Below are positions 9,042 through 41,689 of a stretch of 64,000 nucleotides of DNA, piece after piece. The notes under the pieces were generated by a model. It worked only from the letters and a program-made list of their open reading frames with translations. It was not told where the DNA came from and did not search any database. A program made the translations under genes and the position numbers. How positions within the stretch are numbered: the stretch's first letter is position 1; the number at the start of each line of letters is the position of its first letter. The DNA lies in contig JAMPGU010000003.1 of NCBI GenBank assembly GCA_023663865.1, positions 1-64,000 of the forward strand, given 5' to 3'. This stretch comes from Clostridium sp. GTDB taxonomy: Bacteria; Bacillota; Clostridia; Oscillospirales; Acutalibacteraceae.

Positions 9042-9058
9042 AATACCACCTCAAATTC

Positions 9059-9087
9059 AGTATAGCATATAATCCGTACTTAGGCAA
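9059..9087 (-). promoter_or_regulatory. Promoter of the GH3-SGNH operon
   Basis: On the minus strand TTGCCT (9082-9087) and TATACT (9059-9064) are 17 bp apart. GAGGTGG follows as the ribosome site for the GH3 start at 9041. Confidence 0.6.
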
Positions 9088-9107
9088 ATGATTGTTTGCC
9101 GCAAAAA

Positions 9108-9134
9108 ATAAAGCGATGCATAGCACCGCTTTAT
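9108..9134 (-). terminator. Probable terminator of the sensor-kinase operon
   Basis: Arms ATAAAGCG / CGCTTTAT with an 11-nt loop and a following T-rich stretch on the minus strand, placed just after the kinase stop at 9161. Confidence 0.5.
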
Positions 9135-9160
9135 CTATAGATTATTTATAATTTATTGTA

Positions 9161-11534
9161 TTAACAGAGAAGAAGCTTAACCTTTGCCTTGAATAAGTCA
9201 CCGTCAATTGTCAGTTCCAGTCTGCCGTTTTGGAGCTTGCACAGCTCGGTTGCAATGGAAAGACCCAGTCCGTTGCCCTCCTGATTTCGTGATTTATCAC
9301 CGCGTACAAATCGTTCTGTCAGCTCCTCAGGTGAAATATCAAGAGGCTGTGCAGAGATATTTTTAATTTCAAATACGCCGAATTCATTTTCTTTGTAAAC
9401 ATCAACATAAACGCGTGATGCCTTTGCACTGTACTTTCTTGCGTTAGAGAGCAGGTTTTCAATAATTCGGAATGCCTTTGCTCCGTCCGCCATAACAACA
9501 GGTGGATTTTCACAATTCTTTACAATCAGCTCAAGTCCTGCCTTGTCAAAATCAGGCTGGACATCAACGGTTGACTGCAGGCACAGCTCTGCCAGATTTA
9601 TTTTTGTCAGGTTTACACTGATGTTACCGCTGGTAACCTTTGATGCTTCAATTAAATCATCAATCAGTCTTTTCAGCTTTGCACCCTTATCATCAAGTAC
9701 GCCGATATATTCTCTTGCCTTTTCATCCTGAATATCACATTTTGACAGCAGGTCAACATAGGTGATTATAGAGGTTAAAGGTGTCTTTAAATCGTGAGAT
9801 ACATTGGTGATAAGCTCCGTTCTCAGCCTTTCGTCCTTAATTGCCTGGGCAACAGCATTCTGCAGTTCAATATTGGTATACTTCATACCCTCGGCAAGCG
9901 TTTTAAGTGACTGGGGCAGAGCGTTTATGTTCACTGCCAAGTCCTCATGCTTGTTGGCACTGTCTATGATTTTGTCAAGAGAACCGATGTACTGAAGCAC
10001 CTTAATAAACAGGAACAGATTCACACCGAAATCAATGACCATCATCAAAATTGCAAAAACCGGTACATTAATCGCAACGAGCCATACAATCAATCCGATT
10101 ACAGCAATGTTTATAATAACATACAGCAGAGAGAGGATAATAACATTTAACTTAAATCTTTTTGGCTTGTAGCTCAGTGCCTTGCCGGTTGCCGCTGCGC
10201 CCTTAACGAGCAGTTTTCCTATCTGATAAAACAGGAAATTGTTTTTAACTTTTTTATCGCTGTGGGTGTATCTGGCAGCAGCTGCAGAAAATTCAAACAG
10301 CAGGAACCATAACGCAAAGCCCATTACTGCAACGGCTATACAGTTCAGTTTGGAAAAGCTGGTATTGGCAATATCCACCAGACCTAACAGAAGAATATAT
10401 AAACCAAAGCCTATTCCGCCTAGCAGTGCAAAATGAATTTCAAATGGTACATAGTCAATAAAATACAGCTTTGCAGGGCTTTCTTCATTCTTTTTGCCTG
10501 CTATGGAGAAATAGAAAAATCCGCTGATGAAGGAAGCAATCAAAAGTAAAATTGTGCCGATAACCGCAGCTGCAAAATGATTGTTCACAGATACAGCCAA
10601 ATCATTAAAATTGTAAAGCGTGTAATATATGTCTGACCAGTATCCGATTTTTGTCACAGGATTATCACTGCCGCTGATATCTATGGACACAATAAAATCT
10701 GTATCCTTGGTGTAGGCATCATTTTTTATCTGGCTATTGTAAATATAATTTGCAAATTCTTCACTGATGCCGTTGTAAGACAGTTTTCCATCAACGTAGG
10801 AAAAATAAATCATATGACTCTGAGACAGACTTTTAATCAGCTTATCACCTGTGGCTATATCTCGGTCTGTATTCTGAATGGCATCATCATCGCCGTATTT
10901 TGCATAGTATTTAAGAGAGTGATTTGTGTAATACCAATCTATACTTCGGTCGCCCAAATTTTCCGTTGACACTTTAACAAAGGTATCATATAAATCAGAA
11001 ATGTCCTCTGTATAATTATCCTCTTCTATTTCATAGAAGCTGACATAAAATTCATAGGTATCCTTATAGTACAAGGTATCAGCCGCAACATTTTCGGTTA
11101 TATTTGACTGCAGATTTTCAAGTTCATAATCATAGTTAATATATTCATCATTTTCTTCATCGTATCCGTCGAATATGCCGGCGTCAATTTTTTCCTGATA
11201 TTCGTTATACTTCTTCAGCCAATACTGATAAGATGCAGCTGTTTTCTTAACAACCGTGTCCTTTTTTTTTCACCAGTTCCTTTTGCAGCTTTCTCTGCTC
11301 CGCTGCAAGATGACTGTTATAAAATACCGATGAAATATCCTGTGAAAAATAGTTTTGAAATTCGTCGGAATCTGTCCACACATTTATCGTATTTTTACTG
11401 GTGTCATTGTATAGAACAGATAAGACGGTTAATGCACCTAAGCCGCTGGCGGCAGTAAAGGTTATCGCTGCAAGAATAATACATAACAGCTTTGTTATAG
11501 GGGAATATTTATACTTTTTCGCATTTGTATCCAA
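9161..11534 (-). pseudogene. Sensor histidine kinase split by a frameshift in an A-tract
   Basis: The N-terminal part (11534 to 11247, 95 residues) begins with a membrane segment and ends LVKKKGHGC-stop. The rest is in another frame and encodes an extracellular region, several membrane segments, a HisKA box (NVSHDLKTPLTSII) and an ATPase domain ending in GNGLGLSIATEL. The break is at a run of nine A on the coding strand (T-run 11262-11270). Reading it as eight A joins the frames without a gap into one kinase of about 790 residues. It overlaps the regulator gene by 26 bp. It may be a sequencing error, true inactivation, phase variation or transcriptional slippage. A TTG at about 11074 could start a shortened product. 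Confidence 0.85.
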
Positions 11535-24954: not shown

Positions 24955-25329
24955 TTATACAAAAATTATCTCATTGTTAACAATCTCCCTTGCTTGATTT
25001 GCAATATTGTTCATAGTTCCAACCCATGCCATCATATCGTCAGCTTTTAGCTTTTCAGTAATTCCCTGCTTTTCGGAAAGTTGTTTTATTAGTCGGCTAT
25101 ACATTTCCGTTGCCTGAACATCAATGTCGTGTAAATAAGAATTAAGTTTGCCTGTTGTTAGCAATGTTGTGTAATGACTTTTCTTATGTTCTTTAATATA
25201 GGATAAATGCCTATGTCCCCACATACCTATTTCATAATTTGTATCTGCAGATAACAGATTAGGGAGGTAAACATCACCAACAAGTGTATAATTAATACCT
25301 GTCTTTTCATCAATAATATACTTTTTCAT
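24955..25329 (-). CDS. TnpV family protein
   Basis: 124 residues matching the TnpV family (PF14198), small proteins found in Tn4451/Tn4453-type and other mobilizable elements of Clostridia; phrases include DEKTGINYTLVGDVYLPNLL and LNSYLHDIDVQATEMYSRL. Function is not established. A close paralogue sits at 35300-35677, with long stretches nearly identical in DNA, so homologous recombination between the two copies is possible. Confidence 0.85.
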   Translation of the reverse strand: MKKYIIDEKTGINYTLVGDVYLPNLLSADTNYEIGMWGHRHLSYIKEHKKSHYTTLLTTGKLNSYLHDIDVQATEMYSRLIKQLSEKQGITEKLKADDMMAWVGTMNNIANQAREIVNNEIIFV

Positions 25330-25340
25330 AACAATTCTCC

Positions 25341-26441
25341 TTATCTTTCGTAATTTCTGTTTTGTTGCTGTTGTCTTGCCTGTTCAAGAAGGCAGTCAAT
25401 TTGTTTTCTGCCAAAGGCTCGACATAGCAGTTTGTATTTGTTTGCGTTTTTATATAAACTTTTGTTTTCGGCTTTGTAGTATTCTGTATCACTTTTCAGT
25501 CTGCTGATTTGAATATTAAACCGACTATTTTTGTTTCGCTCATTATATAATTGATTAACCAAATCAAGATATTTGGCAAGCACAGTTTTGACTACCTTTT
25601 TGAGTTTGTCAATCAATGGCTCTACAATCTTTGTTTTGTAGGTTTTTGCAGTCATAAATCTATCAGGCTCAGACAACTGATATTCAGCCTCATCTAATGA
25701 TTTCGGAATATCTATCATTTCTTGATATTCTGATAAATCATCAATCTTGCTTTCAAGATTGCTTACCTTTTGTGTTAGATCATCTACCTCTTTTTGTCTT
25801 TCCTGCTTTTTGTAATCAAGAACAGATAAATGCTTTTTGTGAGTACCTTTTTGCTCCCATTCAACGCCATTTCGTTCCATAATAGCAGCAAGATTTTCTT
25901 TTTCAAATTGCACCCACAAGTTCCATTCTGTTTCCTCCTTGCTCTTACCGACAAAGCTCTGTTTTGCAAGTGCTTGCTTGAGCGAAACTCTTGTATCTAA
26001 TCCACGCTTACTGCCTGTTGTAAATGGCACAAAATCAATGTGCAGATGTGGTGTTGCTTCGTCAAGGTGGAGGTGTGCAGAGAACACTCTTAAATTCGGA
26101 TTGCGTTTTTGAAAATCCTTGTAGTATTCATCAAGAATTTTCGTTGCAATTTCACCATTGTAGGTTTTAACTCCTGTATCATCACAATTACCTATCTGAA
26201 CGATGACTTCGTGAAATGGTTTTTCCTGTTTTCCGCTACAAATTTTATCATAATAGTCAGCAATTTTTCTGTCATTTCGCTTTTGCTTGGCATTATACTT
26301 TTCAAGTGCATCGTCAAATAATTCGTGATAGACAGATTTTATATCATCATTGATATATTCAATATTGAGATGTGTTCGCTTTGGATCTGTATTGCCTGCA
26401 TTGAAAACTCTGCTGTTATGATTAACACTACCTTTGCCCAT
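25341..26441 (-). CDS. MobV-type relaxase (Mob/Pre)
   Basis: About 366 residues from ATG 26441. Signatures: MGKGSVNHNSRVFNAGNTDP at the N-terminus, and the catalytic His motif HLHLDEATPHLHIDF (metal-binding His triplet), then a Lys-rich coiled-coil C-terminus. MobV relaxases nick at oriT and start transfer of the strand using a co-resident conjugation system. An open frame goes on upstream to 26579, but it crosses the inverted repeat of the likely oriT. The gene is in the same leftward operon as the integrase. Confidence 0.9.
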   Translation of the reverse strand: MGKGSVNHNSRVFNAGNTDPKRTHLNIEYINDDIKSVYHELFDDALEKYNAKQKRNDRKIADYYDKICSGKQEKPFHEVIVQIGNCDDTGVKTYNGEIATKILDEYYKDFQKRNPNLRVFSAHLHLDEATPHLHIDFVPFTTGSKRGLDTRVSLKQALAKQSFVGKSKEETEWNLWVQFEKENLAAIMERNGVEWEQKGTHKKHLSVLDYKKQERQKEVDDLTQKVSNLESKIDDLSEYQEMIDIPKSLDEAEYQLSEPDRFMTAKTYKTKIVEPLIDKLKKVVKTVLAKYLDLVNQLYNERNKNSRFNIQISRLKSDTEYYKAENKSLYKNANKYKLLCRAFGRKQIDCLLEQARQQQQNRNYER

Positions 26442-26502
26442 TGTTATACTAATAGTTCTTTCTATACTATCACATTCTTTCTTTTTGGTTGGTAAGGTTC
26501 TG

Positions 26503-26630
26503 TTACTCTTGCCAAGAGTAATGCAAATGCACTTTTGACACTTGCGTATCAAAAGATGCTTTGCGGTCCCACGGGACACGTCCCCCTTTGTCTGCTTTCA
26601 GCAGACATTTCCCCCACAGTGTGGGGAAAT
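26503..26630. other. Candidate oriT of element 1
   Basis: Just upstream of the relaxase lies a perfect inverted repeat TTACTCTT-GCC-AAGAGTAA (26503-26521). It is followed by a GC-rich patch with three hairpins: GTCCC/GGGAC (26566-26577), GTCTGCT/AGCAGAC (26590-26606) and CCCCAC/GTGGGG (26612-26626). The position before mob and the stacked hairpins are typical of transfer origins. The nick site is not known. Confidence 0.55.
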
Positions 26631-26781
26631 CTTCTGCGAGGCCCCAACCGAAAAAAGTAAAGAATATCAAGTTGCAAATACAATAAGTTTCGGTTATACT
26701 ATTAGTGCTATTCATTAGTGGCTGCTTTTCATCTGTGCCAGCAGATGTTTTAAAAGCAGTCTTTTTTATTTGGTCATTCAT
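26503..26781 (-). CDS. Small ORF coupled to the RHH gene (doubtful C-terminal half)
   Basis: The ATG at 26781 overlaps the stop of the RHH gene, the same arrangement as the small ORF at 37587 in element 2, and both begin MN(D/N)Q followed by a polar stretch. This argues that at least the start is translated. The second half runs through the GC-rich hairpins of the putative oriT and may have no protein role. No domain is recognised. Confidence 0.35.
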   Translation of the reverse strand: MNDQIKKTAFKTSAGTDEKQPLMNSTNSITETYCICNLIFFTFFGWGLAEDFPTLWGKCLLKADKGGRVPWDRKASFDTQVSKVHLHYSWQE

Positions 26782-27103
26782 TGCTGTTCACCTCAATCTC
26801 TTTGAGAACATCAGTCATATAACGAATAAGGCAAATCATTTCTTCGCTGACATCAAAGCCTTTATCAATTCTGCAAAGCTCATTATACACATCTTCAAGA
26901 CGATTTCTTAATCCCTTGTAGGCTTTGATGTTGCCTTTTACAATAACATCCCTTTTCAACACTCTGCTGATTAAATAATCTTGTTTGTTAAGACCTGATA
27001 TGCTTACATAATCATCAAGCAACTTTGCTTCTTCAGAGGACATCCTGAACGATACTATTTTGCTACGCCACCTGCCATTGTGATCTAAATTCTTTTCAGA
27101 CAA
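26774..27103 (-). CDS. Ribbon-helix-helix mobilization accessory protein
   Basis: About 109 residues from a TTG at 27103, which has GAAAGGAG upstream inside the integrase end; the paralogue at 37580-37909 begins at the same place (LSEKNLDHNGRWRSK vs MSAKNLDNHNRWRSK). The phrase VSFRMSSEEAKLLDDYVSISGL fits an RHH DNA-binding fold as in MobC-type relaxosome proteins. It likely helps the relaxase at oriT. Longer upstream starts would overlap the integrase gene and are not supported. Confidence 0.75.
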   Translation of the reverse strand: MSEKNLDHNGRWRSKIVSFRMSSEEAKLLDDYVSISGLNKQDYLISRVLKRDVIVKGNIKAYKGLRNRLEDVYNELCRIDKGFDVSEEMICLIRYMTDVLKEIEVNSNE

Positions 27104-27104
27104 A

Positions 27105-28181
27105 TCAAGCACTCCTTTCCATATCAAGTTTATTTGCAATTTCATCTTGCTTGGTAGGAAAAAGATGTGCATACCTGAAAGTAATATCAATACTTTCGTG
27201 ATCTACTCTATCGCCGATTGCAACTGCTGAAAAGCCTTCCTCTATGAGAAGAGAAACATGAGAATGTCTTAAATCATGAATTCTGATTTTCTTCACTCCT
27301 GTTTCTTTACAACCTCTTTCCATTTCGTGATGCATATAGCTTTTGGTGATAGGAAACAGTCTGTCATTATCTGAAAATCCATATATACTTGAAATATATT
27401 CTTTCATTTCATCGCATAGGAATTTAGGCATTTTTACATTTCTTTTGCTTTTCGCAGTTTTCGGATCTGTTATAACATCGTTCCCTTTTAATCTTTGATA
27501 TGATTTATTAATTCTTACAGTACCTTTTTCAAAATTAAAGTCAGAGGAAGTTAATGCCAATAACTCGCCAATTCTTAACCCACACCAATAAAGCATTTCA
27601 AAGGCATAATAAGATATGGGCTTATCCATCATTGAATCGGAAAATTTAAGATATTCATCTTTAGTCCAAAAGTCCATTTCTTTTTCTGTTTCTTTTTTCC
27701 CCATTGCACCAACTTTTGTGGCAGGATTAACAGGAAGATTATAGTATCTTACTGCATGATTGAAAACTGCACTAAGCTGATTATGAACTGATTTCAAATA
27801 TGTTTGAGCATAAGGCTTACCATTTTTATCACGATAGTTAATCATCTCATTTTGCCAAGCAATAATCTCTTTCGTTCCTATATCATCCATTTTCATCTTT
27901 CCGAAATAGGGGATCAGCTTTTGGCTAATAATATGTTCTTTGGATAACCAAGTGTTGAGCTTTAACCTATTCTTTTTGTCAGCAGTATAGATTTCAACAA
28001 AACTCTCAAAGGTCATATCCATTTTAACTGCTGCCTTTAGTTCCTGTTCCCGTTCCCATGCTTGAGCCTCTCGTTTCGTGTCAAAGCCACGCTTTTGCGT
28101 TTGCTTTCGTTCTCCGGTTATTGTTTTATAGCGATAAAGCACTCGCCAAGTATTTGTTGCTTTATCCTTATACACAGACAT
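27105..28181 (-). CDS. Tyrosine-type site-specific integrase
   Basis: About 358 residues: an N-terminal arm-binding domain (MSVYKDKATNTWRVLYRYK...), a SAM-like core-binding domain (about 60-160) and the catalytic domain. Catalytic residues are seen in CGLRIGELLAL (Arg), HDLRHSH (His-x-x-Arg), VDHES (His) and FRYAHL (Tyr). It inserts and, with the HTH partner, excises the element. The ATG at 28181 has AAAGGAG 10 bp upstream. It is about two-thirds identical by eye to the integrase at 37899-38987, consistent with both elements using the same target. Confidence 0.93.
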   Translation of the reverse strand: MSVYKDKATNTWRVLYRYKTITGERKQTQKRGFDTKREAQAWEREQELKAAVKMDMTFESFVEIYTADKKNRLKLNTWLSKEHIISQKLIPYFGKMKMDDIGTKEIIAWQNEMINYRDKNGKPYAQTYLKSVHNQLSAVFNHAVRYYNLPVNPATKVGAMGKKETEKEMDFWTKDEYLKFSDSMMDKPISYYAFEMLYWCGLRIGELLALTSSDFNFEKGTVRINKSYQRLKGNDVITDPKTAKSKRNVKMPKFLCDEMKEYISSIYGFSDNDRLFPITKSYMHHEMERGCKETGVKKIRIHDLRHSHVSLLIEEGFSAVAIGDRVDHESIDITFRYAHLFPTKQDEIANKLDMERSA

Positions 28182-28186
28182 AAATA

Positions 28187-28393
28187 TCACGCTCCTTTCT
28201 GTTTTGTGATCTGTGCATTTGTACCATAGACCTTTTCATTAAAATACTGCTTGCTAACTCTGCCCGAAATGGTGATGTATCCCTTTTGAGCAAGCTCATC
28301 ATTAAGCTGCTGCATAATCTTATAGGCGTGAGCCTTTGAAATTCCAAGCATATAAGCAACATCATCAGCCTTTAGAAATAAACTTTCTGCCAT
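28187..28393 (-). CDS. Excisionase-like helix-turn-helix protein
   Basis: About 68 residues with a MerR/Xis-like winged HTH: FLKADDVAYMLGISKAHAYK then a second half typical of small transposon HTH proteins. It starts with AAGGAGG upstream and lies 5 bp before the integrase, the usual place for a directionality factor. The paralogue is at 38991-39176. Confidence 0.8.
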   Translation of the reverse strand: MAESLFLKADDVAYMLGISKAHAYKIMQQLNDELAQKGYITISGRVSKQYFNEKVYGTNAQITKQKGA

Positions 28394-29600: not shown

Positions 29601-31811
29601 TTATTCAGCCATCATCATATTATAATGTGCCTCATGATCCATCTTTATAAAAATTTCTTTGAAAATCTGCTTGTACCTATCAATTGAATCAGTATAACTA
29701 TCTATGTAAAGATCGTCAGGAATGGAATGTGAACCATCATTTATCCAACTAAACAATGAACGGCATATCATTTTATCTTCTATTGAATCAAATGAATCTA
29801 TAATTTTTTCGTCCATATCTATTCCTAAAATACCGAAATAATTTTCGATAATTCTTCTCATAATGTTTTGCGTTGTTACTAATGAAGCATTTGTGTTTGT
29901 TTTTAATTCTTGCCACAAAAGCTCATATGAAGTTTTTATTGGATTCTTTTTTCCAAAGGCTCTTATTGAGGATACATTGTTGTCTTTGTTAATAATCCAA
30001 TAGTTTACCTCATTTAACTCTTTAGTTCTTTTATCTACAAATGATGCTTCTTTATGAAAGAAAACATTATGAGTAAGAATAAATATCTGTTCAACATCTG
30101 ATATGCCATCTCGAATTTCTTTAATCAATGATTTCACCATTGAACTAACTATATACAATACCGTACTATCAAGACTACATATCGGATCATCTAAAACTAA
30201 AATCTTTTTTGCAGATATCTTATTAGCTTCAATCGAGCCTTTTGCAAACTGAATAAAATACAAAAAAGATATAAATGTTTCTTCTCCTTCACTCAAAGTG
30301 TTTGTTGCAAGTGTTCCATCCATTCTCTGTATTTGGTATGAGTTTTCTTTAGTCGGTGATGGAACAATTTGAAAGTTTGTAAATCCATATGCCTTTAAAG
30401 AACGATTAATTTCATCAACTGTTGGCTGGACACTTGTAACATTTTTCCCTGCCTCATAAATATCAATGTCGAGCTTGTCCAACTGTTTTTTGCATTTAGT
30501 TATACCATTACATATTCCTGATTTTGCTTTTTCAAATTTAGATAAATCGTTGATATATCCACTTATTAACTTTTCTTGTTCGTCCATTAGGAATTCCCAA
30601 ATAGCATCAATTAAACTTTTCTTCTCATCATTGTAATTATCAACCATTTTATTATGGCTAACAATATTGCTATTGGCAACCGATATCATATCCAACAATT
30701 TGTTTACTATTGATATACTGTCTGGCAACGTTATTTTCTTCCCAGCTTCCTTTTCTTTCGCAGTCATTTCTATTAAAGAGCTTGAAACCAATGTTTTTAA
30801 TGAATCTAACAATGTATCATATTTTTGAATGTCTAAGTTACCTACACTTAATACAACAGTATTTTCTTTAACTTTTGATAGGTTCAAAATTAGTAAATCA
30901 GATGTTGCCTTATATCTCCCTATTAAGTTTTTTATGTATTTGATGTTTTCTTCGTATTCACCACTAAAGAACAAATTTAATTGTTTCTCTAAATCTACGC
31001 TGATGGTCTTTTGTTGACAGAAAGGACATATACCATTATCACGAATGTATGAACGACCTCTATTAACCCAATCTGCATTATCGAGAAAGTCAATAAGTTT
31101 TGATATAGGTACATCTTTATTTCCAACAATAATTTTCTCCCAGATAGAATCTTTTTCTATTGATTCAAGTTCAGAAACAAAATGCGAAACAGTGATATTA
31201 AATGTGTTACATCTTTCAGGCTTATTTGAAAAAATAGCATCATAACGCTTTTTTAAAGAATCTCTTGTTTCGCTTGAAGAATGGGATGCTTTATATCTTT
31301 TAATAACTTCATCTTGAAACTTTTCTTTACTGCTTCTAAATCCGCTAAATGCTTCTTGAAAGTCCACCTCATTTTGTTTAAGAATAACATTCCAAACAGT
31401 ATCTCTAAATCTTTCGTTATGAGCTTTTTCTTCGGATTTCTTATTATTTAAGGTTTCTGTTCTTTTGAAGTAGTCATTTCGCTTTTTTTCTCGCTCTTTT
31501 TTCATTTCTTCAAGAGCATTTATTTCTTCAATAGTTGCTTCGCCTAAAGTGAATACGCCTGCAATATCTTCTTTGAAATGACGTGTGCGAAAGTCTCTAT
31601 TGTAGACAACAATGTCCGTAAAAGTATTATTGTCCCAATCTATTTCACAATCTGAATATTGAGGAACACTTTGATTATGCAAAAAATTACTTATTGTTGA
31701 TTTGCCACTACCATTAGGACCATAAAAGAAATTTATTTTTTGACAATTTTCTATTATTGCACCTTCCGATGAATATGTGGCACAATTTTTCATGGTTATC
31801 GATTTGATCAA
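29601..31811 (-). CDS. AAA ATPase with zinc hook, RloC/PrrC-like anticodon-nuclease candidate
   Basis: 736 residues of the AAA_13 type: Walker A GPNGSGKST (31-39), long coiled coil, a zinc-hook CPFC (C262, C265), coiled coil again, ABC signature LSEGEE, and Walker B LVLDDP (D541-D542). RloC proteins combine such a Rad50-like hook ATPase with a C-terminal RNase using Arg, Glu and His. Here R652-x3-E656 is followed by H695 in a SH motif, spacing like the PrrC triad (R320, E324, H356). It lies 44 bp downstream of a restriction-modification gene, the context in which PrrC acts as a guard. Catalytic role is inferred, not shown. Confidence 0.65.
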   Translation of the reverse strand: MIKSITMKNCATYSSEGAIIENCQKINFFYGPNGSGKSTISNFLHNQSVPQYSDCEIDWDNNTFTDIVVYNRDFRTRHFKEDIAGVFTLGEATIEEINALEEMKKEREKKRNDYFKRTETLNNKKSEEKAHNERFRDTVWNVILKQNEVDFQEAFSGFRSSKEKFQDEVIKRYKASHSSSETRDSLKKRYDAIFSNKPERCNTFNITVSHFVSELESIEKDSIWEKIIVGNKDVPISKLIDFLDNADWVNRGRSYIRDNGICPFCQQKTISVDLEKQLNLFFSGEYEENIKYIKNLIGRYKATSDLLILNLSKVKENTVVLSVGNLDIQKYDTLLDSLKTLVSSSLIEMTAKEKEAGKKITLPDSISIVNKLLDMISVANSNIVSHNKMVDNYNDEKKSLIDAIWEFLMDEQEKLISGYINDLSKFEKAKSGICNGITKCKKQLDKLDIDIYEAGKNVTSVQPTVDEINRSLKAYGFTNFQIVPSPTKENSYQIQRMDGTLATNTLSEGEETFISFLYFIQFAKGSIEANKISAKKILVLDDPICSLDSTVLYIVSSMVKSLIKEIRDGISDVEQIFILTHNVFFHKEASFVDKRTKELNEVNYWIINKDNNVSSIRAFGKKNPIKTSYELLWQELKTNTNASLVTTQNIMRRIIENYFGILGIDMDEKIIDSFDSIEDKMICRSLFSWINDGSHSIPDDLYIDSYTDSIDRYKQIFKEIFIKMDHEAHYNMMMAE

Positions 31812-31855
31812 TTATTTTCTCCTATTATTTAGAATTTATTGAATAAAAATTTAAA

Positions 31856-34800
31856 CTATTCAAAAATAGTTCTCACTATTGTGTTCAATTGATTTTCCAT
31901 ACGACTAATATTTGATAGACAATTGTTTCTAATTTCATTATGAATTTGAATAGAAATGTTTGCGATTTCGTTATGAACATTGTTATCACAATCAAATTTA
32001 GGAATTGCAAGATATTTCAAAACATCTATGCCTCTGTTAGTTGAAATTGCATACCCATCAATAATGGAAACAATATCTTTTGAATTAAGAATACCACAAA
32101 TATAGTTTGCTTCTTCAAAATCATCCAAAGCTAACATCAAGACTTTTGAATCAACTACAATATTCTTATCTGCTGAGAACAATTCGGCATCGGCATTAGG
32201 AATTGATTCCAAATATGAACCAACAACCACTGCGGACATACTACCAGTTTGTTCTTTCCATAACACTTTGTATGGAGAATATGTATATTCTCCAACATTA
32301 TCAAGTCTATAATAAGGTTGAGTATTGGCATTAAAGAACTTCCCGTTTTGAATACGACTTGCTAGCAATTCGTCGTAATAATAATGTAACCATTGGCTGG
32401 TCTTAGGTGCAATTCTGTCTAATTCTGTAACTGGTATACCATACTTATGCTCGACAGTATGTGGTACTATCATAAATTCATTGGATTTAACTTCCCATTT
32501 ACCTATATTTCTTCCACCCAGCATCGGAAAAATATAAGTTTCTTCAACTTTTTCTTTATGTATACCTTTTTTCAAAAAGTCTTTTCTTCGTTGCCTTTCT
32601 ATACAGTTTTCAATTAATAACAATCCATCTCTACATTTTTTAGGTTTTCTTATTATATAAACACCTTTTGCTCCTGCCGGTTCAATTCCTTTCCTTCCAG
32701 AATAGAATCTTGGTTTAGTATGATCTAATACTTTATTTGCAAACTCCATGTCTTCAAGAGTAAGCCAAGACGATTGATTGTCATTTCCATCCACAGGTTG
32801 AGCAGATATTGTTTTTACTGAAAGAACAGTTTCAACTGACATCCACTTTGCATGAGAATCAAACGATGTTTTTTTTCCTGTTTGTGTCCACACGTTATAA
32901 TTATTCATTGGGTAATTCATTGCTTTCCCTTTGCTTATTTTTATTGCAATAGTTGGAATAGTAAATAATTTAACGTTAGAAAAATCGTCAACAGAATCAA
33001 TTGAAAATGGTATGTTTTGACCAAAGCGAGTTATTTCAAATTTTCTAAATCCTTCTCCTCCTTTTGTGGATTTCAGGAAAGATGCTGGTAACAAAAATAC
33101 CATATTCCCATTTTTTTTCAAATACCTATCAACAGCAACATAAGTAACTGCCATACCAAAATCATCATGTGTGGTTTTTTTGTCGTATGCATTTTTCTCA
33201 AAAATACCATAACTTTTCCATATTTCAAGAGTTCCTTCGCGATAACTTTTACTCATGGATTTCCATGCAATCCACGGAGGATTTCCAATAACATAGTCGA
33301 ACTTGTTTCCAATTAGTATTGGTGCAAAACTATTTCTCAAAATAATAGGCCAGAATGAATCGTTTCCTGCACGATGTAATGTATAAAGACGATTAAATAA
33401 TTCTTCAACGATAGATTTATATTTATCATCCACATAACGATTTTCAACCTTATTCCAAAAATCATTAAAGTCACATTTATCATCTATACTTTTGCTTAAT
33501 AATTTTAAAAATTCACTTGCTTTTTCATATTCATAAAATTTAGGAATCTGAAATTTACCAACAGAAGTATCTATTGATAATGTCAATTCATTTTCCTCAG
33601 TATAAACTACTGGAGCAAGAATAGAGTCCGCGATATAAATAGGAATATCAATTGGATCTGCAAAATCATCAAATACAGAATCCTCGCAAGATGAGAAAAC
33701 AGCGAGAATATAATTCGCCTTGGCAGATACAACTGAAATAGGATTAATGTCAAATCCTATTACGTTGTGAGTAATTTTATCTATGTCATCTCTTGATAGT
33801 TTTCCACCAACATTTTTAACTATTCTCTTAATAGAATGAGTTAAAAATGTTCCTGAACCAGCAGTTGGATCAATTACTGTTTTATTGACTTCACCATCAT
33901 ATCCAATCATATCTAAAGCATGTTCAACAATCCAATCAGGAGAAAAATATTCGCCCATCAAATGTCTCATTTCTGCAGGGATAAGTTCCATATACACTTC
34001 CTGCAAAATATCTTGTATTTCTTCAGGCTTCAAAATATATGTACTTAAGTCAAATTTGTTTACAACTTCCAAAATCTCATTTATTACTTTTGTGTCAAAA
34101 TTATTATCTGAGCATGTATAGGTAAACCATTCCATAAAGTGTGATTCAAAGAAGTTATTTACCAACGACTCATACTTACTGAGTTCGCCATCAAATAGTC
34201 TATCAATCTGAGGCTTCGTCAAATTTTCGGGTTTAAAAGTTGGGCTTACAAGTTGAGCAAGGAAGGAATATATCAGTAACTTCAAAAACATATTAAAAAA
34301 TGTTTGAAGTGCAAATAAATATACTTTGCTATCAATATTGACAGTATCGCTATATCCATATATTTCTTTTATTACAGATGAGACTTCTGTAAATGAGGTA
34401 GCCTCATCATCTTCTCCGTACATCGTTCCAAAAACACGATCCCATTCTTTATACAAAGTTCGAACGCGAGTGCTACCGTTTAAATCATTAAGATTAAATT
34501 CCAACTCATCATATATGGTTTTTATGCTGTTGCGAACAAATGCACTTTTAGGATTAATGATAGAAATAAGATTTTTTTTATTTAATGCAATCTTGTCTTG
34601 TTGTTTTAAAAGTAAAGCTAATCGTTTTAATCCAGAAGCAAAATCTTTAGTTTCATAAACAAACGAAATTGGTAATAACACATCTATATTAATTTTTAAT
34701 TTTGAAGTGTTAATTTCTTGATATGTTGGAGATGGTACAAAACGAGCAAAAATAAATGAGTCGCCATCAAATCCTACCCCTATACTGTTTAGCAACTTAG

Positions 34801-35143
34801 AAACCATTGTTTCCGAAGAGTCTGTTCTAGAAACTCCAGAATTACTGATAATATAATCATATAGTCCGTGATCTCTATCATTTCTTCCATTTATTGCCTC
34901 TTTAATACCATTGGTAGTCTTAAAGTATCTAAATTTTTTCAATTCAAACGAAATGTTCTGAAAAGTCGCATCAGTTCTTCCGCCAGCCAGAAGATTGTCT
35001 TCACTCTTATACTGATTAACCATTGTAGGATTAACTTCCTCCAGCAAAGGCTTAACAATATCAGAATGAAAGTGTATTTTTACATCGTCTTCAGTATTAA
35101 AATTATTAAGTTTGAAAGATTGTTCAAGTTTTATGAGTTCCAT
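31856..35143 (-). CDS. Single-chain restriction-modification protein (type IIG-like, Eco57I-type N6-adenine methylase)
   Basis: 1095 residues from ATG 35143 (GGAGGTG upstream; a longer frame to 35221 lacks a ribosome site). N-terminus: a possible PD-(D/E)xK nuclease with D58...E67-x-K69 (GRTDATFQNISFELKK). Middle: methylase motif I DPTAGSGTF (from D425) and motif IV NPPW (621-624). C-terminus about 800-1095: a TaqI-like target-recognition region ending in a specificity-type repeat (YICGILNSKD...). One polypeptide would cut and modify the same site. A BREX-type PglX is less likely because no other BREX gene is near. The nuclease call is moderate. Confidence 0.8.
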   Translation of the reverse strand: MELIKLEQSFKLNNFNTEDDVKIHFHSDIVKPLLEEVNPTMVNQYKSEDNLLAGGRTDATFQNISFELKKFRYFKTTNGIKEAINGRNDRDHGLYDYIISNSGVSRTDSSETMVSKLLNSIGVGFDGDSFIFARFVPSPTYQEINTSKLKINIDVLLPISFVYETKDFASGLKRLALLLKQQDKIALNKKNLISIINPKSAFVRNSIKTIYDELEFNLNDLNGSTRVRTLYKEWDRVFGTMYGEDDEATSFTEVSSVIKEIYGYSDTVNIDSKVYLFALQTFFNMFLKLLIYSFLAQLVSPTFKPENLTKPQIDRLFDGELSKYESLVNNFFESHFMEWFTYTCSDNNFDTKVINEILEVVNKFDLSTYILKPEEIQDILQEVYMELIPAEMRHLMGEYFSPDWIVEHALDMIGYDGEVNKTVIDPTAGSGTFLTHSIKRIVKNVGGKLSRDDIDKITHNVIGFDINPISVVSAKANYILAVFSSCEDSVFDDFADPIDIPIYIADSILAPVVYTEENELTLSIDTSVGKFQIPKFYEYEKASEFLKLLSKSIDDKCDFNDFWNKVENRYVDDKYKSIVEELFNRLYTLHRAGNDSFWPIILRNSFAPILIGNKFDYVIGNPPWIAWKSMSKSYREGTLEIWKSYGIFEKNAYDKKTTHDDFGMAVTYVAVDRYLKKNGNMVFLLPASFLKSTKGGEGFRKFEITRFGQNIPFSIDSVDDFSNVKLFTIPTIAIKISKGKAMNYPMNNYNVWTQTGKKTSFDSHAKWMSVETVLSVKTISAQPVDGNDNQSSWLTLEDMEFANKVLDHTKPRFYSGRKGIEPAGAKGVYIIRKPKKCRDGLLLIENCIERQRRKDFLKKGIHKEKVEETYIFPMLGGRNIGKWEVKSNEFMIVPHTVEHKYGIPVTELDRIAPKTSQWLHYYYDELLASRIQNGKFFNANTQPYYRLDNVGEYTYSPYKVLWKEQTGSMSAVVVGSYLESIPNADAELFSADKNIVVDSKVLMLALDDFEEANYICGILNSKDIVSIIDGYAISTNRGIDVLKYLAIPKFDCDNNVHNEIANISIQIHNEIRNNCLSNISRMENQLNTIVRTIFE

Positions 35144-35165: not shown

Positions 35166-35194
35166 ATTATACAGCATAATAATTTATTGGTCAA
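35166..35194 (-). promoter_or_regulatory. Promoter of the restriction-modification gene
   Basis: On the minus strand TTGACC (35194-35189) and TATAAT (35171-35166) with a 17-bp spacer. The -35 hexamer is embedded in a half-site TATTGGTCAATA (35185-35196), the same sequence as each arm of the palindrome 55 bp upstream. Confidence 0.75.
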
Positions 35195-35239
35195 TATATA
35201 ATTTACATAAATATATAACATTTTTGTTAATATTTTATC

Positions 35240-35259
35240 TATTGGTCAATTGACCAATA
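35240..35259. promoter_or_regulatory. Perfect 20-bp palindrome upstream of the RM promoter
   Basis: TATTGGTCAATTGACCAATA, a complete dyad. Together with the half-site over the -35 it looks like an operator system. No controller-protein gene is adjacent. Confidence 0.7.
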
Positions 35260-35299: not shown

Positions 35300-35677
35300 T
35301 TATACTTTAAAAATCAACTCTATATTTACACACTCTCTTGCTTGATTTGCGATATTGTTCATAGCACCAACCCAAGCCAGCATATCATCTGCTTTGAGTT
35401 GTTCTGTTATACTTTGACTTTCGGCAAATTGCTTGACAAGTTGGTTATACATTTCCGTTGCTTGAACATCAATATTGTGTAAATATGAATTAAGTTTGCC
35501 CGTTGTTAGTAATATTGTGTAATGACTTTTCTTATGCTCTTTTAGATAATCTGCATGTCTTTGCCCCCAAATACCTATTGCGTAATTTGTATCTGTTGAT
35601 ACAAGGTTAGGGAGGTAAACATCTCCAACAAGTATATAATTAATGCCTGTTTTTTCATCTGTAATGTACTTTTTCAT
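35300..35677 (-). CDS. TnpV family protein (element 2 copy)
   Basis: 125 residues, close paralogue of the protein at 24955-25329 (DEKTGINYILVGDVYLPNLV; LNSYLHNIDVQATEMYNQL). Function unknown. It ends the leftward mobilization operon; the restriction-modification genes lie beyond it. Confidence 0.85.
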   Translation of the reverse strand: MKKYITDEKTGINYILVGDVYLPNLVSTDTNYAIGIWGQRHADYLKEHKKSHYTILLTTGKLNSYLHNIDVQATEMYNQLVKQFAESQSITEQLKADDMLAWVGAMNNIANQARECVNIELIFKV

Positions 35678-35688
35678 AACTATTCTCC

Positions 35689-37074
35689 TTATCTTTCATA
35701 ATTATGATAGCGTTGTCGTTGCCTTGTTTTTGTAATGATTTTTTGTTGTTGAATTGATTTTTCAGCTTCGATATTTTTTTCGATTTTTTTATTATCAGTC
35801 AAGATATTATTTGCTGTACGAACATCCTTTCGCAATGATTTTAATGTATTTGTGTAGCTATCTCGTTTAGATAATAATTCGGATTTCACATCAGGATTAG
35901 TACATCTTCTCAGCTTGTTGTAGATATGCTGTCGTTCATTTTCTAAAAGACATATTTGTCGTTTTGATGTGTCAATAAAATTCTGCACATCATCAAGATT
36001 ATCAAGTTTTTCCCTACATATTAACCTTATCTCTTGCGAATACCTGTCAAGCTTTCTGCAAGCCTGCCTCATTTCAGGAGATAGTGGCTTATGCTGTTTC
36101 TTTCTTGGCAAATATCCTAACAAGTAACAATAGTAAAAATATAACGCTCGCAATCCTGTAACTTTTCTTGTGTCGGTAAGGCTGCCAATACAAGAATATC
36201 TTTTCACTTTAATTGGCTTGGACTTGCTTTGATAAGAGAAGTCTTTCAACCTGACAAACGCTGTTTCAATATCATTTTCTTTTATTCTTTCAAGAATATT
36301 TTCTCTGTCATAGTTTTCTCCTAAACGATACAGCCTTGTATTCTTTTTAGCATTAACAGAACAGATTGTCGCATACTTATGATATGGATTAATATCAACA
36401 ATATATCCTTTTTGTTTCATTACCCATATAAAATCTTTAGGGTCGAAACTCATGTTGATTGCTTCATCAATGGATTGACGCATTAGATTGTACTTTGTTG
36501 GCTCGCTATTCTTTTCAGCAATATGAATATTACGAGGAGTATGTCCTACAGGATGTTCAATTACTGACAAACCATAGGCCTTACATAATTCATCTGAAAG
36601 TTCTCTCATTTTGCTGTAAGTTCTTTTATTGCAATCAAATTTCTTTCCGTTTGTGTAGGCAACAGAATTGATAACAAAATGATTGTGGCAATGTTCTTTA
36701 TCCAAATGTGTTGTAACAAGCACCTGATAATTTTTGCCCCACAACTGTTTCGCAAAATTCACACCGATTTCATGACACTGTTCAGGTGTAACCTCTCCCG
36801 GCTTGAAACTCTGATATGCGTGATAAGCAACATTGCCACCAATTTTACCAAAGTGCTTTTTTACTGCCACCATTTCTGTATAAGCATTACCAGCCGAACA
36901 GGAAACACCCGTTACAAACATTGTCTTTTCATTAAGCTGTGTTTTCCTTTGATTGGATGAATAGTGAATAACCTGCCACAAGTCATCATCCATAACTGTC
37001 TTTTCAGGATTACTTGCATAATCAACAAGTCTTTTCAAATTATCCTTGACCGCCCATATTTTTGTAGTAGCCAT
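35689..37074 (-). CDS. Relaxase of the MobA/VirD2 (PF03432, MobP-like) family
   Basis: 461 residues. Residues about 1-180 are the relaxase domain with AYHAYQSFKPGEVTPEQCHE and the metal-binding triad HLDKEHCHNHFVIN. The C-terminus is Lys-rich and helical. This family differs from the MobV relaxase at the same position in element 1, so the relaxase module has been exchanged while the rest of the chassis was kept. It lies 2 bp after a MobC-like gene. Confidence 0.9.
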   Translation of the reverse strand: MATTKIWAVKDNLKRLVDYASNPEKTVMDDDLWQVIHYSSNQRKTQLNEKTMFVTGVSCSAGNAYTEMVAVKKHFGKIGGNVAYHAYQSFKPGEVTPEQCHEIGVNFAKQLWGKNYQVLVTTHLDKEHCHNHFVINSVAYTNGKKFDCNKRTYSKMRELSDELCKAYGLSVIEHPVGHTPRNIHIAEKNSEPTKYNLMRQSIDEAINMSFDPKDFIWVMKQKGYIVDINPYHKYATICSVNAKKNTRLYRLGENYDRENILERIKENDIETAFVRLKDFSYQSKSKPIKVKRYSCIGSLTDTRKVTGLRALYFYYCYLLGYLPRKKQHKPLSPEMRQACRKLDRYSQEIRLICREKLDNLDDVQNFIDTSKRQICLLENERQHIYNKLRRCTNPDVKSELLSKRDSYTNTLKSLRKDVRTANNILTDNKKIEKNIEAEKSIQQQKIITKTRQRQRYHNYER

Positions 37075-37076
37075 AT

Positions 37077-37367
37077 CTATTCAAGCTCCTTGAATATTTT
37101 AGAACGAACATCATTCAACATATTTTCAAGATACACATTGAATTTAGGCTCTGGTTTTGGATAGTTCCATTCAATGAGAAATTCAATATCTTTGCATAAA
37201 TCTATTAAATGCTGAGGATATGCCTTTGGAGTATATCCATTAGCAAGCTCACGAACATAAGAAGAAATGGACATTTTACATTTTTTAGCATTCTGCATTA
37301 TCCGTTTTTTCTCTTGTTCAGATACTCTTATTTGAATAACCTTTTCTCTTTCTCTCGTAAATATCAT
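37077..37367 (-). CDS. MobC-like relaxosome protein
   Basis: About 96 residues from the ATG at 37367 (a TTG at 37397 is also open). VIQIRVSEQEKKRIMQNAKK and MSISSYVRELANG are typical of the ribbon-helix-helix MobC family that melts oriT for MobA-type relaxases. It overlaps no other gene and is followed at 2 bp by the relaxase. Element 1 lacks a counterpart, in keeping with its different relaxase. Confidence 0.8.
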   Translation of the reverse strand: MIFTREREKVIQIRVSEQEKKRIMQNAKKCKMSISSYVRELANGYTPKAYPQHLIDLCKDIEFLIEWNYPKPEPKFNVYLENMLNDVRSKIFKELE

Positions 37368-37387
37368 CTCACTTTCATATTGGGGTT

Positions 37388-37455
37388 TTAGGGGCAATCC
37401 CCTAAGTGTTCCGGGAATGTATGGCAGTACATTTCCTATGCTCGCTACAGTCTGC
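37388..37455. other. Candidate oriT of element 2
   Basis: Upstream of mobC and the relaxase lie three adjacent hairpins: AGGGG/CCCCT (about 37390-37403), GGAATGTA/TACATTTCC (37413-37435) and TCGC/GCGA (about 37442-37457). Placement and structure are as expected for a transfer origin; the nick sequence is not recognised. Confidence 0.45.
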
Positions 37456-37587
37456 GACTATAAATTTATCATACTTGTAATTCTTCGTATTTTCAGTTAT
37501 AATATCATTACTACATATTTGAGATGACTGCTCTGCACCTACGCCAATAGGTGCATTATGGGCGGTCATTTCTTTTTGATTATTCAT
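37402..37587 (-). CDS. Small coupled ORF in the mobilization operon
   Basis: 61 residues (MNNQKEMTAHNAPIGVG...) whose ATG overlaps the stop of the RHH gene, as for the small ORF of element 1. The shared start arrangement suggests real translation, at least of a leader-like peptide. Its 3' end reaches the candidate oriT. No family recognised. Confidence 0.4.
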   Translation of the reverse strand: MNNQKEMTAHNAPIGVGAEQSSQICSNDIITENTKNYKYDKFIVADCSEHRKCTAIHSRNT

Positions 37588-37909
37588 TGCTTTCTCCTTT
37601 CATTCCATAGAGAATTACAGCAATCAAATCAATAGTATCAAGCAGTTCATCCGATACATTTTCACAATCCGAAATACGCTCAAGCTCTGCTAAAATATCC
37701 TGCACTTGATTTTTCAAAGCCTTATATACTCTCGGATTTCCAACTACTTTAACCTCTTGTTGCAGTGAACGACGAATAAGATAATCCTGTTTTGTAAGTC
37801 CTGATAATTTTGCATTTATATCAAGCTGTTTTGCCTCTTCAGGTGACATACGAAAGGCAACTGTCTTGCTGCGCCATCTGTTATGGTTATCAAGGTTTTT
37901 AGCTGACAT
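37580..37909 (-). CDS. Ribbon-helix-helix mobilization accessory protein (element 2)
   Basis: 109 residues with VAFRMSPEEAKQLDINAKLSGL and a helical C-terminus; paralogue of 26774-27103. The ATG at 37909 overlaps the integrase stop codon by 11 bp, confirming the equivalent TTG start in element 1. Likely a DNA-binding relaxosome or segregation helper. Confidence 0.8.
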   Translation of the reverse strand: MSAKNLDNHNRWRSKTVAFRMSPEEAKQLDINAKLSGLTKQDYLIRRSLQQEVKVVGNPRVYKALKNQVQDILAELERISDCENVSDELLDTIDLIAVILYGMKGESNE

Positions 37910-38987
37910 TTAATTTTACCTCCCTGAAATTATTCAATTTGTTAGCCATTTCAGTTTGCTTTGAAGGGAATAAGTGGGCATAGCGGTAGGTTATTTCAAT
38001 GCTTTCGTGTCCTACTCTATCGGCAATAGCCACTGCCGAAAAGCCCATATCAATTAACAAACTGATGTGACTATGTCTTAAATCGTGTATTCTTATTCGC
38101 TTCACGCCTGCCTCTTTTGAGCCTCTGTTCATCTCGTGATGAAGATAGCTTTTTGTTATAGTAAATATCCTATCTTTCTTTTTTAGTCCGTAAATCATAC
38201 CCAAATAATCTTGCATTTCATCGCATAAAAACTTCGGTATTTGTATGGTGCGATTACTTTTCTTTGTTTTCGGTGTAGTGATTACATCTTCACCGTGCAG
38301 ACGCTGATAAGACTTGTTAATAGTTACTGTGCCTTTTTCAAAATCAAAGTCTGCAGGCGTTAATGCAAGCATTTCTCCAAGCCTTAATCCACACCAATAA
38401 AGCATTTCAAAGGCATAGTATGATACAGGCTTGTCCATCATAACTTCGGCAAATTTTAGGTATTCTTCTCTTGTCCAGAATAACATTTCAACCCGTTCTT
38501 CTGTTCCCATATTGCCTGCTTTAGCTGCAGGATTGCATCTTAAATCATAAAATCTGACAGCATGATTAAAGATTGCACTTAATTGATTGTGCAGAGTTTT
38601 TAAATAAGTTTGTGAGTAGGGCTTATGCTTTTCATTACGATATGCAAGCATTTCATTCTGCCAAGCCACCACATCCTTTGGTGTAATTTCACTTATTTTT
38701 CGCTTTGCAAAATACGGCATAAGTTTCTTATCAATAATATTTTCCTTTGTAAGCCATGTGCTTTCCTTTAAACGGGGCTTAATATCCTTTTTGTAAAGTT
38801 CCACAAATGCTTCAAAGGTCATATCCATATCGGCAGCAGTTTGTTGATGAAATTTTCGCTCCCAATGGGTAGCCTCTGCTTTTGTAGCAAAACCACGCTT
38901 GCATTTTTGTTTGCGTTCACCTTTCAAATCGGTATATCGTGTCATAACATACCAAGTGTTTGTTTTCTCATTCTTAAAAACTGACAA
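37899..38987 (-). CDS. Tyrosine-type site-specific integrase (element 2)
   Basis: 362 residues with an N-terminal arm-binding domain, core-binding domain and catalytic residues in CGLRLGEML (Arg), HDLRHSH (His-x-x-Arg), VGHESIE (His) and YRYAHLF (Tyr). It is closely related to the element 1 integrase, consistent with both using the guaA 3' end. GAGGAATAG precedes the ATG. The gene follows the excisionase-like gene at 3 bp. Confidence 0.93.
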   Translation of the reverse strand: MSVFKNEKTNTWYVMTRYTDLKGERKQKCKRGFATKAEATHWERKFHQQTAADMDMTFEAFVELYKKDIKPRLKESTWLTKENIIDKKLMPYFAKRKISEITPKDVVAWQNEMLAYRNEKHKPYSQTYLKTLHNQLSAIFNHAVRFYDLRCNPAAKAGNMGTEERVEMLFWTREEYLKFAEVMMDKPVSYYAFEMLYWCGLRLGEMLALTPADFDFEKGTVTINKSYQRLHGEDVITTPKTKKSNRTIQIPKFLCDEMQDYLGMIYGLKKKDRIFTITKSYLHHEMNRGSKEAGVKRIRIHDLRHSHISLLIDMGFSAVAIADRVGHESIEITYRYAHLFPSKQTEMANKLNNFREVKLNVS

Positions 38988-40063: not shown

Positions 40064-40075
40064 TTATTCCCACTC
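40064..40075. repeat. att core at the guaA 3' end
   Basis: TTATTCCCACTC contains the guaA stop codon and the last codons (VEWE-stop on the minus strand). Insertion here regenerates a complete guaA end. Confidence 0.7.
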
Positions 40076-41593
40076 AACAGTTCCGGGGGGTTTTGAGGTT
40101 ATGTCATAGACTACTCGGTTAACGTGGTCGACCTCATTGGTGATGCGGTTTGACACGGTTGCCAGGATATCGTATGGAATTTTTGCCCAGTCGGCTGTCA
40201 TAAAGTCATCGGTGGTAACGGCTCTTATGGCAATTAAATTGTCATAGGTTCTATGATCGCCCATTACACCAACGGTGTTTACACCGGGGAGTACACAGAA
40301 GAATTGTGCCAGATTGCTTTCGTAACCATTCTTAGCCATTTCGTCACGGAGCACCCAGTCAGCCTCCTGCAGTACTTTGATTTTTTCTGCAGTAATCTCA
40401 CCGATAATTCTTACACCAAGTCCGGGACCGGGGAATGGCTGACGCCATACAAGCTCTTTTGGAATGCCGAGCATTTCGCCAACCTTGCGCACTTCATCCT
40501 TAAATAAATCTGCCAGCGGCTCAACGATACCTAAAAATTCAACATCCTTTGGTGTTTCCACTCTGTTGTGATGTGTTTTGATGACATCTGCATCGCCCTT
40601 TCCGGATTCGATACAGTCCGGATAAATTGTACCCTGGGCAAAGTAACCAAGTTCCTCCTGCTTTCTGATTTCATTCCAGAAAACATTGAAGAATTCCGTG
40701 CCGATTATTTTTCTCTTCTGCTCCGGATCAACAACACCCTTCAGCTTTGAAAGGAATAAATCTCCGCAGTTTACACGAACAAAATTCATATCAAACAATG
40801 AGGTGAAGGTTTGCTCTACAAAATCACCCTCGTCTTTACGCATTAAGCCCTGGTCTACAAATACACAGGTCAGCTGTTTGCCTACAGCACGTGACAGCAG
40901 GCCTGCGGCAACAGAGCTGTCAACACCGCCGGACAGACCGAGAATAACCTTCTTATCGCCGATTTGCTCTCTGAGCTTTGCAACGGTATTATCAATGAAA
41001 TTGTCCATCTCCCAGTCACCGGCGCATTGGCATATTTCATATAAGAAGTTATAAAGAATCTGTGAACCAAACTGAGAGTGGGTTACCTCAGGATGAAACT
41101 GCACAGCATAAATATTTTTATCTGTATTTTGCATAGCCGCACAAGGACAGTCATTGGTAGTGCCGATAATATCAAATCCCTTTGGTACAGAAGCAATATA
41201 GTCAGTATGGCTCATCCAAACAGTTGATTTTTCATCAATATTTTTAAACAGCTTTGCATTTAAATCCGCTGTAAATTCGATTTTTCCATATTCAGATACG
41301 GGCGCGGTTTTAACCTCACCGTCACCCATCCATGCGATAAGCTGGCAGCCATAGCATATACCGAGAATAGGCACGCCCAGCTCCAGTATATCCTTTGTAT
41401 AATGCGGTGAGCTCATATCATAAACAGAGTTTGGTCCGCCGGTAAAAATAATGCCCTTGTAATTATTTTCCTTAATTTTATCAATTGGAGTGGTATAGGG
41501 CAGAATTTCAGCAAAAACCTGATGGTCACGAACTCTGCGTGCAATAAGCTGATTATATTGTCCGCCAAAGTCAAGAACTAGAATTTTTTCCAT
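40064..41593 (-). CDS. guaA: GMP synthase (glutamine-hydrolysing)
   Basis: 509 residues, the normal length, from ATG 41593 with GGAGG upstream; a longer frame to 41668 is not supported. The glutamine amidotransferase domain has the nucleophile in GICYGCQL (C80) and the HPEVTH dyad region. The ATP-pyrophosphatase domain has the P-loop GLSGGVDSS, and the C-terminus ends PPGTVEWE. It converts XMP to GMP with glutamine and ATP. Its 3' end is a known integration site for genomic islands, as seen here. Confidence 0.97.
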   Translation of the reverse strand: MEKILVLDFGGQYNQLIARRVRDHQVFAEILPYTTPIDKIKENNYKGIIFTGGPNSVYDMSSPHYTKDILELGVPILGICYGCQLIAWMGDGEVKTAPVSEYGKIEFTADLNAKLFKNIDEKSTVWMSHTDYIASVPKGFDIIGTTNDCPCAAMQNTDKNIYAVQFHPEVTHSQFGSQILYNFLYEICQCAGDWEMDNFIDNTVAKLREQIGDKKVILGLSGGVDSSVAAGLLSRAVGKQLTCVFVDQGLMRKDEGDFVEQTFTSLFDMNFVRVNCGDLFLSKLKGVVDPEQKRKIIGTEFFNVFWNEIRKQEELGYFAQGTIYPDCIESGKGDADVIKTHHNRVETPKDVEFLGIVEPLADLFKDEVRKVGEMLGIPKELVWRQPFPGPGLGVRIIGEITAEKIKVLQEADWVLRDEMAKNGYESNLAQFFCVLPGVNTVGVMGDHRTYDNLIAIRAVTTDDFMTADWAKIPYDILATVSNRITNEVDHVNRVVYDITSKPPGTVEWE

Positions 41594-41689
41594 TAACATT
41601 TCCTCCATTAAAACACTTGGTATTATTATATAGTATAAGTGTTTTGTTTGCAAGGGCAAATCACTCAATTTAAACCACGGTTCGAATTA

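Follow-up and report, generated by a model that had tools for sequence, protein, structure and literature searches.

The locus studied here raises the question of whether a predicted anticodon nuclease works together with the restriction enzyme directly in front of it and, if it does, what would switch it on. RloC nucleases have been described as rarely linked to restriction-modification (R-M) systems, and whether they work with such a system has been a question since 2008, when a survey found 8 of 72 RloC genes linked to type I or type III R-M loci (PMC2610378). The window, i.e., the whole 64-kb stretch of clostridial DNA that was analyzed, carries an RloC-type gene as the second of a pair with a type IIG restriction enzyme (Table 1). 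We consider it reasonably probable that the RloC protein is a tRNA nuclease triggered by DNA ends, which backs up the IIG enzyme in a two-gene defense operon.

Table 1. Features of the RloC/IIG locus and its surroundings. Conservation is given as the number of aligned relatives or sequences with the residue.
Feature	Position	Strand	Basis or remark
TnpV-similar ORF	24955-25329		Belongs with module 25341-28190
RloC-type ABC-ATPase/predicted anticodon nuclease, 736 aa	29601..31811	-	TTG start; second gene of the pair
C-terminal helical domain, residues 628-734, predicted HEPN-like anticodon nuclease	29610..29930	-	AlphaFold2, weak VIA-align matches, hhalign to PrrC
His695 of triad, Ser694 before it	29727..29729	-	118/133; aligned with PrrC His
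Glu656 of triad	29844..29846	-	130/133, 3 Asp; aligned with PrrC Glu
Arg652 of R-x3-E...H triad	29856..29858	-	133/133; aligned with PrrC Arg
Walker B and D-loop, residues 537-548, ILVLDDPICSLD	30168..30203	-	Alignment of 134 sequences
ABC signature LSEGE, residues 506-510	30282..30296	-	S507-E510 in 134/134
Zinc-hook CPFC, residues 262-265	31017..31028	-	Cys262 and Cys265 in 134/134
Walker A GPNGSGKS, residues 31-38	31698..31721	-	G31, N33, G36 and K37 in 134/134
Type IIG restriction endonuclease-methyltransferase, 1095 aa	31856..35143	-	ATG start, GGAGG ribosome site; first gene of the pair
Methylase motif IV NPPW, residues 621-624	33272..33283	-	Motif match
Methylase motif I DPTAGSG, residues 425-431	33851..33871	-	Motif match
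PD-(D/E)xK-like nuclease motif, residues 49-69, DNLLAGGRTDATFQNISFELK	34937..34999	-	Pattern match; putative catalytic role
Sigma-70-like promoter TTGACC-17-TATAAT before the IIG gene	35166..35194	-	11/12 consensus positions, best in region; promoter-like sites overall no commoner than in shuffles
Three copies of ATTGACCAAT/ATTGGTCAAT, operator-like	35186..35258	.	No other copies in the 64-kb window
TnpV	35300-35677		In TnpV-relaxase-integrase module 35300-38987

RloC proteins have been defined as 658-897 aa long, with ABC motifs, a coiled-coil insert that carries a CXXC zinc hook, and a C-terminal Arg-X3-Glu-X36-52-His in which Ser often precedes the His (Davidov and Kaufmann, PMC2610378). 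The 736-aa protein has all of these features, including the ABC motifs, the CPFC hook, and R652-x3-E656-x38-H695 with Ser694 before the His. The core of its Walker B and D-loop reads DDPICSLD (residues 541-548), and the ABC switch His is found in TH580-581. In the AlphaFold2 model, the ATPase adopts a Rad50/SMC-type fold, and the hook, which is predicted to bind zinc, lies inside a helical insert at about residues 94-458. AAA_13 (PF13166) matches the whole protein (E 6e-160), and the best family match is PADLOC PDC-S06 over the full length (E 6e-244). The PADLOC PrrC model matches residues 466-732 (E 2e-10), and AriA gives a weak match (1.5e-4). The Walker motifs, the CPFC hook and the R652/E656/H695 set that the first-pass annotation had reported were all recovered, and the family E-values argue against a chance resemblance. 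That annotation had called the protein RloC/PrrC-like, of which the RloC part stands. Identification as PrrC was rejected, as PrrC proteins are 341-416 aa long, have no hook insert and are always linked to type Ic enzymes, whereas no hsd genes lie beside the RloC gene and its neighbor is a type IIG enzyme. Membership of the RloC family is therefore well supported by every sequence feature tested.

The nuclease triad was compared across 134 aligned full-length sequences, with relatives drawn from plasmids, phages, genomes (80 loci) and viral contigs (47 loci). The relatives were found with an alignment query; exact-peptide scans with single proteins found none in the genome or viral contigs. 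All three residues are conserved (Table 1), and the His is missing solely in a distant phage-borne branch at no more than 30% identity. This branch (L137, L142, L144, L145, L132-L136, L015 and L016 [Javan105]) keeps the Arg and a Glu or Asp, and it includes a protein annotated as "translation-disabling ACNase RloC". Additionally, a His near the C-terminus, His729 (AHYNMM in the window), is invariant across the whole RloC family, which makes it a possible second candidate for catalysis. When the RloC family profile was compared with two genuine PrrC proteins, hhalign returned a probability of 91.5% (E 8.5e-7), and in the resulting alignment the R, E and H of the profile fall on the R-x3-E...H of PrrC. 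The likeness to the PrrC/RloC triad proposed in the first-pass annotation is thus borne out, both by this alignment and by conservation among the relatives.

The C-terminal domain is predicted to be helical (AlphaFold2, pLDDT 79), with low model quality in the loop that surrounds and follows His695. Foldseek gave no significant match with the isolated C-terminal model, and VIA-align returned HEPN-family proteins (AbiA, AbiV and HEPN toxins) among its first rows at weak scores (Z 2.8-4.8). These matches are consistent with previous work that placed both RloC and PrrC among the HEPN proteins (PMC3710099). A sequence search for solved structures of RloC or PrrC relatives, with which the fold could be compared directly, found none. 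HEPN domains cut varied RNAs (PMC3710099), and the weak structural matches include abortive-infection proteins and toxins, so the domain could instead be a HEPN-kind abortive-infection RNase directed against mRNA or rRNA. However, the triad matches those of the tRNA anticodon nucleases RloC and PrrC in spacing and context, and we regard a target other than tRNA as very unlikely.

The protein encoded by the first gene is covered by PADLOC REase_MTase_IIG PDLC03625 over residues 7-1092 of 1095 (E=0), and Pfam detects Eco57I (1.3e-12) and N6_Mtase (3e-8). For the C-terminal target-recognition domain, TaqI_C scores E 0.26, and the PADLOC IIG model reaches the C-terminus. Nuclease and N6-adenine methylase motifs are found in one chain, as in Eco57I-like type IIG enzymes, although typical descriptions of these enzymes do not include an RloC partner. 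Judged by its sequence, the 1095-aa protein is a type IIG restriction-methyltransferase with an intact gene, which agrees with the single-chain, type IIG-like enzyme suggested by the first-pass annotation.

Both genes are on the minus strand, with 44 bp from the IIG stop to the RloC gene, and the TTG start of the latter is preceded by an AGGAG ribosome site. Non-ATG starts also occur elsewhere in the RloC family. The promoter before the IIG gene probably serves both genes, and a single transcript is likely because this promoter precedes the first gene and no terminator-like site was found between the two. The ATTGACCAAT/ATTGGTCAAT copies lie within 73 bp before the IIG gene, with two arranged as a palindrome of 18 bp and the third covering the -35 box, and they may form an operator for some regulator.

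Within a genome of gut Clostridia, the pair is carried by a mobile element and is flanked by a TnpV-relaxase-integrase module (35300-38987) and a further integrase module (27105-28190). The tandem modules (25341-28190 and 35300-38987) each comprise an integrase and a relaxase or Mob, together with TnpV or a similar ORF, and they lie beside guaA (40064-41668). A repeat of the guaA 3' end that would mark an island edge was searched for and not found. No homologue of either protein was found in 197 genomes of the order, which fits recent arrival by horizontal transfer.

Among the 80 genome loci with RloC relatives, 27 have a modification partner, the classes of which were assigned in some cases by family scans and in others by similarity to scanned or annotated partners. 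The partners are type IIG (L022, L052, L067, L080, L086, L090 and L097), type II (L019, L020, L021, L025, L026 and L065), type I (L040, L043, L049, L061, L064, L071, L083, L091 and L092), type III (L027, L066 and L069), BREX (L023) and a methylase-specificity fusion (L059). In 48 of the 80, some of them on short contigs, no recognized partner was within reach, and the five further relatives adjoin SbcCD-like genes. SbcC/SbcD-like genes directly adjoin RloC in L029, L030, L036, L038, L075 and L090, and this adjacency is another link of RloC to DNA-end processing. In the BREX locus (L023, 2-13713), the RloC gene comes after PglX, PglZ and BrxL, with a 398-aa ORF without PADLOC match in between.

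The seeds for the similarity count of partners were taken from near neighbors, which may introduce a bias that a motif-only count of ORFs of at least 250 aa with an NPPY-type methylase motif avoids. Within 4 kb upstream of RloC in the 80 genome relatives, 25 such ORFs were found in 285 kb, 24 of them co-directional with RloC, as compared with 7 in the remaining 714 kb of these flanks. Chance adjacency of methylase genes and RloC was therefore rejected.

The first-pass annotation did not know of the arrangement as described. A literature search, with many subscription journals outside its range, turned up no paper that describes RloC together with a type IIG enzyme. However, the arrangement is not a one-off, as seven relatives are also paired with a type IIG enzyme, giving eight RloC rows with this partner. 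The IIG partners of the relatives belong to five PADLOC subfamilies (PDLC03597, 03604, 03606, 03609 and 03626), or six with the 03625 of the window, and those compared were unlike outside short methylase motifs, L080 versus L090 excepted. The partners in L067 and L086 had also been considered as BREX PglX, which was rejected since PADLOC assigns them to type IIG. Several unrelated IIG-RloC pairs have gaps of 10-71 bp, and the two genes are separated by a further ORF in L067 and L080.

The distribution of partners was followed on an RloC tree obtained by a quick search under a simple model, on which changes were counted without direction. The IIG label requires eight changes for the eight rows, so each IIG pairing appears to be separate, and by this count the RloC-IIG pairing arose about eight separate times. 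For partner type as a whole, at least 16 changes are needed in the 36 rows with a partner, as compared with 21.9 for shuffled labels. The closest kin of the window RloC, L019 (78%), has an N4/N6 methylase and a restriction endonuclease (REase) as partner, while L020 and L021 (69%) have a C5 methylase, an NgoMIV-type REase and Vsr, and L022 (63%) has a frame-split IIG and an M.Eco57I-like methylase. The surroundings of L019 and L020 contain integrase, Mob and TnpV genes similar to those of the window. Close kin thus seem to keep RloC while the restriction partner is exchanged. In L022 (514-3539), the IIG is split into ORFs of 599 and 404 aa, which align one after the other to a single PADLOC IIG model; this is apparently a frame break or a sequencing error, and the RloC beside it is apparently intact. 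The closest relative without a restriction partner is an Acetoanaerobium RloC (L005, 51%). Its gene (8001-10339) also neighbors guaA, whose 3' end is 104 bp away, and no integrase or restriction gene was recognized within 18 kb. This relative and the 48 genome relatives without a recognized partner show that the restriction partner is dispensable for RloC, which counts against a joint defense operon.

Such a pattern could mean that RloC and the restriction enzyme are independent passengers, i.e., separate defense cassettes that share the cargo slot of a mobile element. The roughly 60% of relatives without a recognized modification partner and the free change of partner type are what this would predict, but the co-directional bias immediately upstream of RloC and the short gaps in several unrelated IIG pairs would not be expected of random island neighbors. 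We therefore find it quite improbable that the two genes merely travel together.

If the two proteins do act together, the IIG protein might physically silence RloC and release it upon being bound by an anti-restriction factor of a phage, which is the mechanism implied by the first-pass annotation. This would follow the precedent of PrrC and type Ic enzymes (PMC2610378), and it is consistent with the operon-like linkage, the recurrence of the IIG pairing, and the location of both PrrC genes used for comparison inside type I loci. However, outside the short methylase motifs, the IIG enzymes of these pairs are unrelated to one another, and close RloC kin are found with type II NgoMIV/Vsr, N4/N6 methylase and REase, type III or type I systems. 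One specific binding interface is thus unlikely. Moreover, RloC of Acinetobacter baylyi (AbaRloC) is not silenced by host R-M proteins (PMC3874168), and RloC has an internal hook switch, which PrrC lacks. Direct silencing by the IIG protein is therefore an unlikely, if somewhat less improbable, alternative.

Because RloC is found with structurally unrelated partners, control by some general cue, for example DNA ends, is more likely than silencing by a specific enzyme. This agrees with previous work showing that RloC of Geobacillus kaustophilus (GkaRloC) needs linear DNA and ATP hydrolysis, and that AbaRloC becomes active upon DNA breakage even when the host is an R-M mutant (PMC3874168). From this published work we infer DNA-end activation and tRNA cleavage for the window protein as well. 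In the DNA-end-triggered backup that we favor, the IIG enzyme would methylate the host's own sites and cut unmethylated invading DNA. RloC combines an ABC ATPase of the Rad50 type, bearing a zinc hook, with a predicted C-terminal anticodon-nuclease domain (R652, E656 and H695). Most likely, its own hook and ATPase would keep it inactive until DNA ends activate it. These ends could come from restriction, from phage degradation of the host genome, or from failure of restriction-modification. Activated RloC would then cut tRNA anticodon loops and halt translation, thereby blocking phages that escape or disable the first line. Restriction cuts as the sole trigger would endanger the host at each success, and a threshold or an extra signal would therefore be needed.

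The window protein resembles published RloC of G. kaustophilus and A. baylyi in size class, ABC motifs, CXXC hook, and triad with Ser before the His (PMC2610378, PMC3874168), but unlike these its gene lies directly behind a type IIG enzyme. RloC-like genes in R-M neighborhoods, with few instances beside Pgl systems, have been reported (PMC3710099). With PrrC and its partner EcoprrI, the locus shares an alignable C-terminal triad and an ABC-ATPase joined to a nuclease and linked to an R-M system. PARIS (AriA/AriB) is similar in outline, in that its ATPase sensor is coupled to an effector that cuts tRNA as a backup to restriction systems. However, AriB is a separate Toprim nuclease, whereas the nuclease of the window protein is fused to its ATPase and predicted to be HEPN-like. 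No mechanism is attached to the candidate label PDC-S06, whereas the motifs of the window protein place it with RloC, and this assignment gives a candidate mechanism to an unexplained PADLOC candidate.

Collectively, the RloC family and its presence in R-M neighborhoods are already known, and what is new is the recurrent, partner-swapping pairing of RloC with type IIG enzymes. The exchange of partners between closely related loci tells which mechanisms are plausible, and operon-like pairs of RloC with a one-chain restriction enzyme, comprising two genes, offer the simplest possible test. A broader and more tentative possibility, which we hold to be doubtful at present, is that RloC proteins of this clade act as a universal guard that can be added behind nearly any DNA-modification system, IIG included, and that reads failure or cutting by one common signal. 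If true, such a guard would give a two-gene "restrict, then stop translation" system.
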